Source of the DNA: Fischerella sp. JS2
GTDB lineage: Bacteria; Cyanobacteriota; Cyanobacteriia; Cyanobacteriales; Nostocaceae
NCBI RefSeq assembly: GCF_032393985.1
Contig: NZ_CP135918.1
Span: 2,914,001-2,978,000, forward strand
Direction: 5' to 3'
DNA: 64,000 bases
Shown: one piece after another, positions 51,184 to 64,000 of the stretch
Layout: the number at the start of each line of letters is the position of its first letter
How positions within the stretch are numbered: position 1 is the first letter of the stretch
Program-made: the position numbers and the translations under genes
The notes under the pieces: model-generated
Told to the model about the DNA's origin: nothing
The model's input: only the letters and a program-made list of their open reading frames with translations
Database searches by the model: none

Positions 51184-51255
51184 ATAAATTCGGAATCTAC
51201 AATTAATATCAAGTTTGCATGGCTACTTATTATTTCCGTTTAACCTTACCCCCAT

Positions 51256-51280
51256 CCCCTCTCCTTGCTAAGGAGAGGGG
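51256..51280. repeat. CCCCTCTCCTT hairpin repeat
   Basis: A perfect 11-bp inverted repeat with GCT loop, in the spacer between the convergent kinase and rplL. The CCCCTCTCCTT...AAGGAGAGGGG element is a common intergenic repeat in Nostocales (recollection). Confidence 0.65.
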
Positions 51281-51362
51281 TGCCGCAGGCGAGGTGAGGT
51301 CTTGTATTATAAGTGGTTCACCGAACTGGATATTACTTACAAATAATTCCGAATTGGAATAA

Positions 51363-58407: not shown

Positions 58408-60453
58408 TTATTTTTTCAAAGTAGCTGATGCATTAAGTTTGTAACTGGCTATAACTTGGTTAACTGTTGGTAATAGTTCTTTATATTGCTCACTAGGTAC
58501 AATATAGGAGTCAATGGAAATTTTGTCACCTTGGGATTTGATAAAACTATTAGCTGTGAGTGATCCGGAGGCATTTCCGCTTTTAGCTGTATAACTCCAA
58601 GTAATCCTCACACTGCCGTCATTTTGTCTGACAGGCTGATCCATTCTAAAGTCTGGTTCTGACTCAAATTTGTTAATAAACCGCTTCAAAATATTGGTTA
58701 ATTCTTCTTGAGTGGGAGTGTTTTCAGTGTTGAAAACATTGACTTGAATCAGACCATTCTCAGTTGGATCAAGCCAATAGATAATTACTTCGTTGGCATT
58801 ACTGTTATCCCTGAGATTCCAGCCTTGGGGAACATCGATAGAGAACAAACCAGTGTCGTAGGAATAGGTTTGTAGGTTGCGTATTACGACTGGTCGGAAG
58901 TTACCAGTTGTGGTTCCGGAGGTTGAAGTCGAAGAACTTGAAGAATTGGAAGAACTTGAAGAACTTGAAGAATTGGAAGAACTTGAGGTAGAAGGTTCAC
59001 TAGGAGTAGGACTGACCTGAGTCGGAGTTGCTACTGGTGTGTCAGAGTTAGAGTTATCTTGTTCGGAAATACTAGCACCGATAAAAGCCAATGCTACAAT
59101 TAAGACCCCTAAAGCCCCAAGGCAAGAATAAAGAATGATTGCTGCTTTTGTCCAAGCTCTTTGGTGGGCTTTAAAGTCTTCAATACTACGCCACTGCCGA
59201 CTTCTCCAAGCCCATGTGTTACCTTTTGCACCCAAGACAAAAGGCATCGGTATACCCACGTAAGGAACCCAAGATAACAGTCCAATCCAGACTTGATTGG
59301 TGATACTCCACAATGGAGACATCAAAAATGCTCCCCAGTTCCAACCTTGAATTTCCGGAGGTACGGGAACATTGGTATTAAATGTGCCACCTCCACCTAG
59401 CCAGTCAGAATTCGTGGTTGCAGCAGGTGAGACGTATTGTTGAGGATTGTAACTTCCGCCCGACCAGTTTGGGTTAGAACCCAGGGGAGTAACAACAGGT
59501 TGGATGTGCTGGGGGGGTTGTCCACCTGAGTTGATAACTGTGGGTGGTGGGGAATATCCTCCAGGGTTTAGTGATGCAGGTGTATTGTATTGGGGAGAAG
59601 GTTCTGTGGGTGCAACGTAATTATTAACCGCAGGAGACTGTAAAGCATCAATCATGTCTTTGGCGGTAGGATAGCGATCGCCTGGATGATATGCGATCGC
59701 TTTATCTAGTACCATCCGTAAACTAGGACTGACATTCATGGCATACTGATGCCACATGATCTCTCCAGTTCTGGGATCTGTTTGCAACTCCTGTGGCATT
59801 CTCCCAGTCAACAAATAAATCATTGTGATCGCTAAGCTGTAGAGATCACTGCTGTAAACAGGCCTACCAGCTGCTTGTTCTGGAGGCATAAATCCTGGTG
59901 TGCCGATGACAATCGAACTAGTGGGGTTGCCTTGAGAGTTAACGATTGTACCCATCGATTCCCGTACTGCCCCAAAGTCAATCAGCACCGGTATATTATC
60001 TGCATCTCGCAGAATTATATTGTCTGGTTTAATATCCCGATGGATGATGTGTCTGCTGTGTACGAAGTTGAGAACGTACAACAAACTCTTGAGTATTTCC
60101 CGCACAGCACTCTCACTCATTACTCCTTCAGTGTGTACTTTTTCAGTGAGAGTTTTACCTTCTACATATTCTTGAACTAAATAAAACTGACCTTGTTCAG
60201 CAAAATACGCATACAAATTGGGAATCCGGTTGTTGCTGTTTCCCAAATCCTCCAAAATGGCAGCTTCTCGCTGGAACCTGTCTTGTACCATTTTATATAT
60301 CTGCGGATTCTCTGTAACAGGCTTCAGCTGCTTAATGACACAACGACGACCGGAAGGCAAATGTGTATCTTCTGTTAGAAAAGTTTTGCCGAAACCACCT
60401 TCTCCTAAAACTTTCACAATCTTGTAACGATTGTTGATAATAGTTTGTAACAT
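58408..60453 (-). CDS. Ser/Thr protein kinase with multi-domain membrane tail
   Basis: 681 aa from the ATG at 60453. Kinase domain 8-275: GEGGFGKT, VIKQLKP Lys, HRDIKPDN, DFGAVRE, GTPGFMPPEQ. A Pro/Asn/Gly-rich linker (about 290-370) follows, then a membrane-associated segment (GWNWGAFLMSPLWSITNQVWIGLLSWVPYVG) and another helix (AAIILYSCLGALGVLIVALAFIG). Next comes a long Ser-rich stretch and a C-terminal domain of about 150 residues (YDTGLFSIDVPQGWNLRDN...) resembling the PsbP/DUF1795 type of ligand-binding fold. It is likely a transmembrane sensor kinase. Divergent from the FHA-PrsW gene. Confidence 0.92.
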   Translation of the reverse strand: MLQTIINNRYKIVKVLGEGGFGKTFLTEDTHLPSGRRCVIKQLKPVTENPQIYKMVQDRFQREAAILEDLGNSNNRIPNLYAYFAEQGQFYLVQEYVEGKTLTEKVHTEGVMSESAVREILKSLLYVLNFVHSRHIIHRDIKPDNIILRDADNIPVLIDFGAVRESMGTIVNSQGNPTSSIVIGTPGFMPPEQAAGRPVYSSDLYSLAITMIYLLTGRMPQELQTDPRTGEIMWHQYAMNVSPSLRMVLDKAIAYHPGDRYPTAKDMIDALQSPAVNNYVAPTEPSPQYNTPASLNPGGYSPPPTVINSGGQPPQHIQPVVTPLGSNPNWSGGSYNPQQYVSPAATTNSDWLGGGGTFNTNVPVPPEIQGWNWGAFLMSPLWSITNQVWIGLLSWVPYVGIPMPFVLGAKGNTWAWRSRQWRSIEDFKAHQRAWTKAAIILYSCLGALGVLIVALAFIGASISEQDNSNSDTPVATPTQVSPTPSEPSTSSSSNSSSSSSSSNSSSSSTSTSGTTTGNFRPVVIRNLQTYSYDTGLFSIDVPQGWNLRDNSNANEVIIYWLDPTENGLIQVNVFNTENTPTQEELTNILKRFINKFESEPDFRMDQPVRQNDGSVRITWSYTAKSGNASGSLTANSFIKSQGDKISIDSYIVPSEQYKELLPTVNQVIASYKLNASATLKK

Positions 60454-60975
60454 TATAATACACAACCTCTATGTTATCTTAATTACTTGATATAGGAAGT
60501 ATCTAGTGCAATACGGCGGAAATAATTTAGAATTTTAAGATATGGACAAAAATCTTATGTGACGATTTTTACCTTTTGCCTCCTGTGTGTTGGCTGGTGG
60601 TGCTAGTGATCTAGTAATTAAAACAATCCATGCAGCTGAGATTACGGAAAATCACTATCAGGAAATAATCTTTAGATTGAGTGAATTCACAAGGTAGATA
60701 CCTGAGTCAACTTAGTTCACAAAAAATTTATGAATTTCTTTACCTTTTCATTGTTGTTTTTTTTGCTGGTTTAATAGTAAACAATGATTAGTTATTTTTT
60801 GATGACAAATAATCAATGATTTTAGCTGTATCAAATCAGCTTTGAAACTGTTTGATATACTTTTATAATTATCTTAATGTTTAAAAACTTACTATATTTT
60901 TTGCGCCTTTTGTGTAAAGAATTAATATTTTATGTGTATTGATAATTACTATTGGCTGGGTAGGGGAGTAGCCTA
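60454..60975. other. Divergent intergenic region between kinase and FHA-PrsW gene
   Basis: 522 bp, A/T-rich, no ORF, tRNA or known repeat. It must hold both promoters. Nothing specific recognised. Confidence 0.45.
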
Positions 60976-62334
60976 ATGAGTAATGCATTTTTACGTATGG
61001 TTGCTGGTAGTCAAGAGTATTCCTACTCGCTGCTAACCACTGGTGAGATGGTACTGGGACGTGACCCCAGTAGTTGTCAAATTGTCTTAGATTCCAATGT
61101 CTACAATATGGTTTCGCGGCGTCATGCGGTCATTCGTCCATCTCAAACACCAGATGGTAGAACTAGCTTTCTAGTTTGCGATCTCAATAGTGCTAATGGA
61201 ACTTATTTAAACGGACAGATTTTGCAGGGATGTCAGGAATTGCAAAATGGCGATCGCATTACTCTTGGTAATAATGGTCCAGAATTCTTTTTCGAATATC
61301 AGTATCAGTACAATCCTCAGCCTATTAGTATACCACAGCCAGCACCTGTAACAAATAATGCAGCCTTTAACTATTCAGCGCCTTCACCTAGTACCAATGA
61401 TGATACTAGCCTGTCGCAACTAATACCGCTTTTGTCAACACCCAAAGATTTAACTCGCAAAGCCTACTTAGTACCAGGCATCATTACCGTTATCTTCGTG
61501 GTACTACTGTTTTTTGTCCAAGGTTATTTATATCAAATATTACTAGGGGCATACTTGGCTGGGGCAACCTTATATTTTATCTACCAGTTATGTGGCAAAC
61601 CTAAACCCTGGTGGGTGTTAATTGCTTCAATCATCACCACAATGGTAGTTTTGGCTAGCCCCATACTTGATCTTTTCATCATTGTGTTTCGCGGCATTCT
61701 ACAAGGAAGCATACCTGAAGATCCCAGTAGCCTCAGTTTTCCCGAATTATTTCTTCGCTTCTTTATAGGCGCTGGGTTACTAGAAGAATTAGTCAAAGCC
61801 TTACCCATCATCGTATTTTATTTAATTGGCAAATCGCTAGTATCCCCTAAACGGGAGCGTATCGGTGTTTGGGAACCCTTGGATGGAATTTTGCTGGGGG
61901 CAGCTTCCGCAGTTGGCTTTACTTTGTTTGAAACCTTGGGTCAATATGTGCCTGGTAGAATTGCAGAAGTGGCCCAAGAGATGGGAACAGAAGCGGCTTT
62001 GGGAGCAGGGTTGCAATTACTGATTCCACGAATACTAGGCGAAGTTGCAGGACATATGGCTTGGAGTGGCTGGTTTGGATATTGTATTGGTTTGGGTATC
62101 CTCAAGCCACGTCTAGCTTCGCGAATTCTGCCCATAGGATACTTAAGTGCTGCTGGGCTGCATGGTTTGTGGAACAGCAGCGCGGGTTTAGCGGGATCGT
62201 TGGGAGTTTTCGTTTTAGGGTTGTTGGTAGTAGTTGGGGGAATATCTTATGCTTTGTTGGTAACAGCAATTATCAAAGCACGTGCTTTGTCGCCGACGCG
62301 TGAGCAGAATTTCGCCACTCGCTTTTTTAAGTAA
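60976..62334 (+). CDS. FHA domain fused to PrsW-type intramembrane metalloprotease
   Basis: 452 aa. Residues 18-105 form an FHA domain, a phosphothreonine reader, with GRDPSSCQIVLDS, VSRRHAVI and DLNSANGTYLNG all intact. After a Pro-rich linker come about eight transmembrane helices with PrsW protease motifs: EELVK (Glu270, Glu271, Lys274), FETLGQY (316-324), His360 (GHMAWSGWFGY) and His396 (LHGLWN). PrsW cleaves anti-sigma factors at site 1 in Bacillus. Here the FHA part suggests recruitment to, or control by, phosphoproteins made by the adjacent kinase. It is directly upstream of the TerB-GTPase. Confidence 0.9.
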   Translation: MSNAFLRMVAGSQEYSYSLLTTGEMVLGRDPSSCQIVLDSNVYNMVSRRHAVIRPSQTPDGRTSFLVCDLNSANGTYLNGQILQGCQELQNGDRITLGNNGPEFFFEYQYQYNPQPISIPQPAPVTNNAAFNYSAPSPSTNDDTSLSQLIPLLSTPKDLTRKAYLVPGIITVIFVVLLFFVQGYLYQILLGAYLAGATLYFIYQLCGKPKPWWVLIASIITTMVVLASPILDLFIIVFRGILQGSIPEDPSSLSFPELFLRFFIGAGLLEELVKALPIIVFYLIGKSLVSPKRERIGVWEPLDGILLGAASAVGFTLFETLGQYVPGRIAEVAQEMGTEAALGAGLQLLIPRILGEVAGHMAWSGWFGYCIGLGILKPRLASRILPIGYLSAAGLHGLWNSSAGLAGSLGVFVLGLLVVVGGISYALLVTAIIKARALSPTREQNFATRFFK

Positions 62335-62562
62335 TGACCCGAAAGTTGATTTTTAAACGCAGAGTCACGCAGAGGTTTTCGCAAAGGAACGCAAAGTGTT
62401 AATAAGAGCTACTTCGCTTTGTGTTTTGAAAAATTTGGGATGCTCTCGTAGAGGTTGGTGAGCAGGTAAGTAGGAAGTCTCATAATTTCCCGTAATTTTT
62501 CTGACGTTGGCGATTATCATTATTGCTTACCCTTATTCTAGGATTGACACTCAGGGTTCAAG
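62335..62562. other. Spacer with CGCAGAG-type repeat
   Basis: AAACGCAGAGTCACGCAGAGG and AAAGGAACGCAAAG words, a dispersed intergenic repeat also visible at about 14125-14161 (inverted) and 49148-49170. No terminator is obvious, so read-through from the FHA-PrsW gene is possible. Confidence 0.45.
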
Positions 62563-64000
62563 ATGTCGCCACTAACCTCTAAGCAAATAAACTACCAATT
62601 TTTACTCCTCACACATATGGTGTGTGCTGATGAGCAGATTCACAGCGAAGAAGCAAAGGTGCTGCGAGAGTTAGCACAAAATACGAACATGGGAACACAT
62701 ACCATCGAAGAGATGGAGAAAATATTGAGTCAAGATGAAAACTTTGTATCTGTTGAGAATGTAGCACGTCAAATCCAACAGAGTGAGCAAAGTGAGGCAA
62801 TGCGACAGATAATAGCTATTGCCTATATTGACGGTTATTTTTCACCATTAGAACGGGAGATGGCAGACCATATTGCAAAAATTTGGAACTGGTCGAATTC
62901 AGAAATCGAAAGGTTGCTGGAACAAACCGAAAAATTAGACAGAGTTAAACGCACTACTGACAATAGAGACGAATCAGAATTATCTGTGGGTGCGCGTCTT
63001 TTAAAGGGGGTAGATTCGGTTTTATCTCGCGCATTAGTAGATAATTTAGCAAAAGTTGCTCCTGAAAATCTTGGACGTAGAATTGAGCAATTGCGGAAGG
63101 AAATATTACTAGCGGGACCTGAGTATGACGATGCAATCCAGCGATGTACAGTCATAGCAACTGAAGATTACAATTATGCAGAAAATTCACTCAAAAGTGC
63201 TTATTCTGCTCTTGCGAGTTTAGCTAAAAATCTTGAAAAAGCTACTGAGGCAATACAGCAAAAAACAAGCAATAAAGGACAAGCTAATCAAGCTAAAAAA
63301 GTAGCAGAACAGCTTGAAAGTACGAGAAATGCTCTCTCCGCTAAAACTCTCAAAGAGCTTGAAGGGGTACGTGAATTGCTGCGTGCAAAACAACGTGCTT
63401 TAAAGCATTTCAGTATCGCCTTCATAGGTAAAACTAAGGCAGGCAAAAGCACTCTCCATGCGATTATTACAGGTGGTGGCTGGGATGCTATTGGTGTAGG
63501 TAAACAGCGTACTACTCGTTTTAATCGAGTTTATGAGTGGAAAAATATTCGGATTATTGATACTCCTGGGATTGGTGCACCTGGTGGTAAAAGTGATGAA
63601 GAAATTGCCGAAAGCATTATCGAAGAATCTGATGTTATTTGTTATGTAGTCACAAATGACAGCATTCAAGAAACAGAATTTAAATTTTTACAGTTGTTAA
63701 AAGAAAAATCAAAACCATTAATTATATTACTTAACGTTAAAAATAATCTTCGAGACACTCGAAGGTTAGAACATTTCTTAAAAGACTCAGATAAATTGTT
63801 TGTAATGGATAGTAAAAGCGGTTTAGGTGGACATATTGAACGCATCCGTCGCTACGCCAAACAGCATTACGCTAACGACTACTTTGATATTATTCCTGTA
63901 ATGCTTTTGGCTGCACAAATGTCACGGGAATCAGAGCATCAAAAATATAAAGACAAACTATTTAAAGCAAGCCGTATACAGAATTTTCTTGATGCTATTC
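62563..64000 (+). CDS. TerB-like domain / dynamin-style GTPase protein, 5' part only
   Basis: 479 codons from the ATG at 62563, open to the right edge. Residues 1-130 form a TerB-like helical domain: two DG/DE-E repeats (MVCADEQIHSEEAKVLREL and IAYIDGYFSPLEREMADHI) of the tellurite-resistance type. Residues about 180-285 are a charged coiled coil. A GTPase domain follows: P-loop GKTKAGKST (289-297), switch I TTRFN, G3 DTPGIG (333-338), and an atypical G4, NVKNN, in place of NKxD. The architecture resembles large membrane-remodelling or stress GTPases. It probably follows the FHA-PrsW gene in one transcription unit. Confidence 0.82.
   Translation, partial: MSPLTSKQINYQFLLLTHMVCADEQIHSEEAKVLRELAQNTNMGTHTIEEMEKILSQDENFVSVENVARQIQQSEQSEAMRQIIAIAYIDGYFSPLEREMADHIAKIWNWSNSEIERLLEQTEKLDRVKRTTDNRDESELSVGARLLKGVDSVLSRALVDNLAKVAPENLGRRIEQLRKEILLAGPEYDDAIQRCTVIATEDYNYAENSLKSAYSALASLAKNLEKATEAIQQKTSNKGQANQAKKVAEQLESTRNALSAKTLKELEGVRELLRAKQRALKHFSIAFIGKTKAGKSTLHAIITGGGWDAIGVGKQRTTRFNRVYEWKNIRIIDTPGIGAPGGKSDEEIAESIIEESDVICYVVTNDSIQETEFKFLQLLKEKSKPLIILLNVKNNLRDTRRLEHFLKDSDKLFVMDSKSGLGGHIERIRRYAKQHYANDYFDIIPVMLLAAQMSRESEHQKYKDKLFKASRIQNFLDAI

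Follow-up and report, generated by a model that had tools for sequence, protein, structure and literature searches.

The open reading frame at the end of the window, the 64,000-nucleotide stretch of the Fischerella sp. JS2 chromosome analyzed here, is almost certainly the front part of TerB-LeoBC, which leads a two-gene dynamin cassette (LeoBC, then LeoA) of the Eleos/Dynamins type, and the cassette is a recent pseudogene pair in this genome. Both the identity and the pseudogene status are firm, with the LeoBC and LeoA assignments made via PADLOC resting on family names. Overall, the explanation that we favor, and consider likely, is an anti-phage-type dynamin cassette, TerB-LeoBC/LeoA, whose two genes have recently decayed in this strain.

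Architecture of TerB-LeoBC

The window (G000:C1:2914001-2978000) belongs to a genome assembled as a single 7.02-Mb contig, and its end was extended in the whole genome as locus L002, in which window position 62563 corresponds to position 2564. The gene had been noted to run off the window. This is confirmed: the plus-strand open frame (62563..64000) is cut by the window end and reaches a TAA after a further 108 bp (L002 4108), giving a product of 514 amino acids. Beyond the window, the same frame extends to its natural end at codon 835, with TAA at codons 515 and 562. PADLOC identifies LeoBC in the 514-aa frame (1.5e-80) and again in the part beyond the stops (4.6e-22), with model positions 389–584 falling after the second stop. 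When the copy is read through, a whole-genome model search returns one LeoBC match that covers positions 18–584 of 601 with two TAA codons inside (6.2e-111). Directly 5' of the start is a conserved leader of ∼70 bp (62490..62562, plus strand), detected by blastn and alignment and common to relatives whose farther flanks differ; its conservation fits a cassette that may move with its own leader. A paired stem in the leader (TTACCCT/AGGGTAA) was rejected, as substitutions read from the alignment break pairs with no compensation.

Pfam places a TerB domain (PF05099) at residues 15–118 (62605..62916, plus strand; E=1.4e-6, 29.0 bits against a cut-off of 24.4), and an independent profile of the module matches the solved TerB proteins 2ou3 (2.5e-7) and 2jxu (2e-4). 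Modeled alone, the module has a pLDDT of 85.6 and superposes on 2ou3 with a Z of 9.7 (rmsd 3.5 Å, 118 of 125 residues; next row Z 6.8), and the nearest solved fold is that of a Nostoc TerB protein. The predicted structure thus confirms an all-helical TerB fold, and the TerB domain proposed in the initial annotation, which had raised the absence of a TerB match as a possible objection, stands on agreeing Pfam, profile and fold matches. Two acidic motifs, CADEQIHSEE and DGYFSPLERE, are candidate metal sites of TerB, and they are poorly kept in some distant members of the alignment.

Behind TerB, a long helical or coiled-coil stretch (residues ∼186–278; 63118..63396, plus strand) leads into the G domain in the predicted structure of an intact relative. 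The dynamin-like G domain starts at residue 283 (63409..64000, plus strand) and, by profile and predicted structure, continues past the window end; it is complete in the 514-aa product. Pfam matches to MMR_HSR1 (1e-14) and Dynamin_N (1.1e-5) at residues 285–391, together with a single-frame architecture that is intact in many relatives, bear out the earlier view of a fusion to a dynamin-style GTPase. The G1/P-loop GKTKAGKS (63427..63450, plus strand) is kept in 50 of 50 aligned relatives bar conservative changes and the G3 DTPG (63559..63570, plus strand) is invariant; across these relatives, G1, the G2 Thr, and G3 are as a set near-invariant. G1, G3, and NVKNN at G4 (63733..63747, plus strand) read as first described.

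The G4 motif departs from the canonical (N/T)KxD, as the annotation had pointed out, but the departure is not peculiar to this gene and is family-wide in the alignment. All 50 sequences have Asn391 and nearly all have Asn395; NKKD occurs in just three distant members, so most of the family has other residues in place of the G4 Lys and Asp. Judged from the alignment, NVKNN is a trait of the LeoBC family, a variation inside it, and damage as the source of the odd G4 was ruled out by the same 50 sequences. The replacement of Lys and Asp may alter nucleotide choice or affinity. Membership in the LeoBC family follows from profile and fold, despite the G4 variation.

Intact relatives are ∼836–850 aa long and consist of TerB, coil, G domain, neck/trunk/paddle, and a small C-terminal domain. 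The model of one of them, L054 (pLDDT 77.9), has as its best Foldseek matches BDLP, LeoA and IniA, followed by mitofusin and Cj-DLP; searches of PDB sequences with single proteins returned mostly generic GTPases. After the G domain, the model contains helices at 472–775 with a low-confidence hydrophobic tip around 627–682, which we read as predicted neck/trunk bundles with a hydrophobic paddle. The corresponding part of the window gene comes after the two stops. The annotation had asked whether the C-terminus carries membrane helices or an effector: what lies beyond the stops is a dynamin neck/trunk with a hydrophobic paddle, and there is no separate effector.

Decay in Fischerella sp. JS2 and loss among congeners

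An adjacent LeoA (L002 5597-7486) is present in the window genome, and both members of the pair are broken. Codons 515 and 562 of LeoBC are TAA in the window copy and CAA (Gln) in the close relatives L053, L054, and L057, showing that each stop is a single C-to-T change. A stop at codon 836 was considered as a third lesion and ruled out, being the natural C-terminus in the closest relatives. LeoA is recognized by PADLOC as two halves (7.2e-86 and 5.4e-32), split by ∼100 bp (L002 6614-6715) that hold a long palindrome, CCTCACCCCGCC... This palindrome is dispersed in dozens of copies (97 blastn matches in the genome, both arms counted); a further copy lies near window 51212-51303. The sequence therefore indicates that two TAA codons in LeoBC and a repeat insertion in LeoA have, very probably, killed both genes by independent lesions. 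No second copy of LeoBC or LeoA was found elsewhere in the genome, and the locus is a pseudogene member of the family rather than a pair with both genes intact; any suggestion that the window copy works lacks support.

Past the stops, dN/dS is 0.24–0.38 for the window copy versus 0.22–0.35 between other relatives, and it is low before the stops too. Since selection past the stops is not clearly relaxed, it does not alone show the age of gene death, and relaxed selection was set aside as proof of pseudogene age. The 525-bp intergenic gap was considered as a possible place for a frameshifted LeoBC tail. This was ruled out, as the gap holds a different, small membrane-protein-like open reading frame (L002:5138-5386) with one membrane helix, beginning MQ(V/L)..A(E/D)FCGRWGC(S/T)W. 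The same small frame occurs in the LeoBC–LeoA gap of L053 and L055 and at L156:6205-6561 near a TerB-Dynamin_N gene; it has no Pfam match and is rare (4 of 60 genomes).

The pair is flanked here by an FHA-PrsW gene, a Uma2-like gene, and an AcrB-type pump. In congener G001, the FHA-PrsW (95% identical protein) and AcrB-type (96%) genes are side by side, and blastn finds 44 bp around the LeoBC start joined straight to DNA just 3' of LeoA, a deletion scar. In the scar (L135, about 2915–2965), ∼35 bp from the start of the LeoBC coding sequence remain together with the end of the leader, with a few bases of microhomology. In congener G002, the two flanking genes are 148 bp apart with no remnant of the cassette. 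On these sequences, the cassette was probably in the common ancestor of at least Fischerella sp. JS2 and G001 and is being lost. The three congeners present a defense-type cassette caught mid-loss, at three different stages.

The FHA-PrsW gene (window 60976-62334), an FHA domain fused to a PrsW-type intramembrane protease, is not part of the cassette because it adjoins the AcrB-type gene in the congeners too. The adjacency of these two genes in congeners without the pair also speaks against the suggested link to ter, kinase or toxin genes at the window locus. No TerC/TerD-type ter gene is among the genes flanking the pair in the window genome; in relatives, ter linkage was assessed from sampled neighbors. 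Elsewhere in the window (58408-60465, minus strand), a Ser/Thr kinase contains a long stretch rich in Ser and a probable membrane segment.

TerB and LeoBC–LeoA pairs across bacteria

Matches were found in 25 of 149 near genomes, with 14 covering the whole or most of the 514 aa, and a scan of species genomes returned 80 loci in Cyanobacteriota, Bacillota, Bacteroidota, Spirochaetota, Myxococcota, Pseudomonadota, and Fibrobacterota. Distribution is sporadic, with LeoBC of any kind in 24 of 386 cyanobacterial genomes, and phages yielded no LeoBC matches. In many genomes an intact TerB-LeoBC is followed directly by LeoA (∼585 aa); the median gap is 18 bp in 26 cyanobacterial pairs and 2 bp in 22 others, and L049 and L050 are natural single-chain LeoBC–LeoA fusions. 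Breaks occur in 8 of 45 complete LeoBC and 7 of 41 complete LeoA of cyanobacteria, counts that are inflated by draft errors. Copies outside the cyanobacteria have no clear break, the two that were flagged being threshold cases.

Within this LeoBC clade, proteins from Cyanobacteriota and six further phyla usually begin with TerB; as the scan patterns were taken from TerB-bearing members, this is not a share of all LeoBC. Pfam TerB is matched directly by 39 of 50 aligned full-length relatives (E<=0.01), and the profile of the module, built without the distant members, recovers these at 1e-10 or better but recovers neither the TerB-less L098 nor the LeoBC of a Klebsiella plasmid. The PADLOC LeoBC model (601 positions) has no counterpart of TerB, as its position 18 aligns at residue 206. 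On the G-domain tree, phyla tend to cluster as single groups, and three changes are required to explain where TerB is present; L098 and L117 look like TerB losses, and the placement of the long Klebsiella branch is unsure.

TerB also precedes a dynamin GTPase of another class. Genome G089 encodes an 867-aa TerB-Dynamin_N protein (L156:681-3281, minus strand; TerB 6.6e-11, Dynamin_N [PF00350] 8.5e-28), which is like TerB-LeoBC in the order of the domains and unlike it in the class of dynamin. Full-length relatives of this BDLP-type protein (∼865 aa) are in about 14 cyanobacterial genomes (L160–L178). TerB is therefore joined to two dynamin classes, and TerB-Dynamin_N is apparently a separate fusion, independent of TerB-LeoBC. 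Other architectures were seen among the loci. In L052:1330-4026 (minus strand), the same TerB cassette, at 47% identity, sits on a protein of 898 aa with a GUN4 domain at its end and no GTPase match. LeoBC carries a C-terminal YbjN domain in L048:7610-10540 (minus strand) and N-terminal TPR repeats in L050:7520-12655, and a TerB-less LeoBC (L047:44-2248, minus strand) ends in a short Hsp70-like "GIDLGTTNS" stub.

Neighborhoods differ among hosts. The 74 neighbors of noncyanobacterial pairs match 66 PADLOC families at E<=1e-15, one protein often matching several families; the 77 cyanobacterial neighbors match only 9, amounting to little defense enrichment; both figures are raw tallies, not neighborhood statistics. 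In Bacillus sp. ISL-41, ZorA (7e-304) adjoins the pair; a type IIG restriction-methylase (1e-274) and a DrmD/BrxH-like helicase are near that of Marinobacter, and a Lachnospiraceae pair has MkoA/MkoC-like neighbors. On pPg_04, a mobilizable plasmid of Pseudanabaena galeata, the pair is located between helicase/methyltransferase genes and a Tn3 transposase. The family itself (LeoBC/LeoA, Eleos/Dynamins) and the neighborhoods of several relatives agree with the phage-defense-like link proposed at the outset.

Predicted role and relation to known systems

LeoA and LeoBC are described as paired bacterial dynamins, LeoA being inactive alone and LeoBC being proposed as its needed partner (PMC4159319). 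Inactivity of paired dynamins when alone is established for Cj-DLP1/2, in which an N-terminal 119-aa assembly domain of Cj-DLP1 is needed for pairing and binds the N-terminal helix of DLP2 (PMC6104087). The dynamin DynA delays lysis after phage infection (PMC8844932), TerB is present in the proven anti-phage system Shango (PMC10250203), and Eleos has been likened to Dynamins, with which it is often coupled (PMC11811056). By analogy with Cj-DLP1/2, TerB-LeoBC and LeoA would form a heterotypic pair of dynamins, each idle without the other. TerB would sense a membrane or ionic change, or dock the two proteins together, upon which the two G domains would dimerize and GTP would be hydrolyzed. The hydrophobic paddles would then bind, tether, or seal the membrane at sites damaged by infection, delaying lysis and phage release. 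Assembly with the partner is suggested by the Campylobacter pair and membrane action by the predicted fold. Because of the literature on Cj-DLP1/2, LeoA, DynA, Shango and Eleos, we infer that TerB may serve to trigger or to dock a pair that guards the membrane, and the membrane-sensing machine first envisaged is plausible.

Family name and neighborhoods make a defense role of the intact system probable. A competing explanation is that the pair remodels membranes as a housekeeping or envelope-stress function (vesicles, repair, thylakoids) and is listed as defense by family name only. Loss of LeoA/B approximately halves vesicle release in ETEC (PMC4159319), BDLP, SynDLP and DynA remodel membranes, and the cyanobacterial neighbors are mostly nondefense genes. 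However, a housekeeping gene is not expected in just 24 of 386 cyanobacterial genomes, nor to be lost outright in two congeners and often broken in cyanobacteria, and defense genes neighbor the pair in several other genomes. We consider the remodeler unlikely, though it is the strongest of the competing explanations.

The remaining ones concern the gene itself. The 514-aa TerB-GTPase could be one working gene and the C-terminal fragment after it another, in the manner of the naturally split LeoC/LeoB of E. coli (PMC4159319), and the complete G domain of the shorter product and the low dN/dS on both sides of the stops are compatible with this. But the break is after the G domain and not inside it, with two stops, each CAA>TAA, set 47 codons apart. 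The final fragment could start only at a TTG codon, and LeoA, the partner, has been split on its own account by a repeat insertion. Together these points make two working genes very improbable. A TerB-centered gene for tellurite or metal stress, ter-operon-like, is suggested by the TerB domain and its acidic motifs, yet no ter gene flanks the pair in the window genome and the partner throughout is LeoA rather than TerC or TerD; we give this reading even less weight. The chance join of two genes or frame artifact that the annotation had allowed for found no supporting evidence and is refuted by the relatives, as dozens of genomes from seven phyla carry the same fusion intact and in a single frame; its probability is close to nil.

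In the current view, a bacterial dynamin acts only with a partner and in response to a trigger. A conserved TerB front, present in most of the clade and in a second dynamin class, is a testable candidate for the trigger or docking part of LeoBC/LeoA pairs, and we lean slightly toward TerB being a sensor or assembly domain. It is a bolder, tentative proposal, which we think somewhat doubtful, that TerB is a dedicated control module of dynamins, a sensor or pairing switch that fires remodeling on attack, and that TerB-dynamins are a distinct, widespread class of defense. TerB on dynamins ties a poorly understood domain to membrane-acting defense. The papers searched contained no experiment on a TerB-bearing LeoBC and none had both a TerB domain and a GTPase; with the subscription literature mostly outside the search, an earlier mention of TerB on LeoBC is possible.

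Among known systems, Eleos/Dynamins of DefenseFinder and PADLOC is similar in its adjacent LeoBC then LeoA, strong profile matches, and accessory distribution, and differs in that TerB here is outside the 601-position model, G4 is usually N-x-x-x-N, and the present copy is broken. ETEC LeoABC likewise combines a LeoA family partner and a LeoBC dynamin in one operon. In contrast, the E. coli LeoBC is split inside the G domain, LeoA is tied to vesicle release, not phage defense, and LeoC has a predicted membrane anchor, with no TerB seen in the text consulted (PMC4159319). Cj-DLP1/Cj-DLP2 are paired dynamins of which the first has an extra N-terminal globular domain of ∼120 aa, as here, but that assembly domain is reported to be Campylobacter-specific (PMC6104087). 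Shango has a TerB-like protein, but combines it with an ATPase and a helicase instead of dynamins (PMC10250203).
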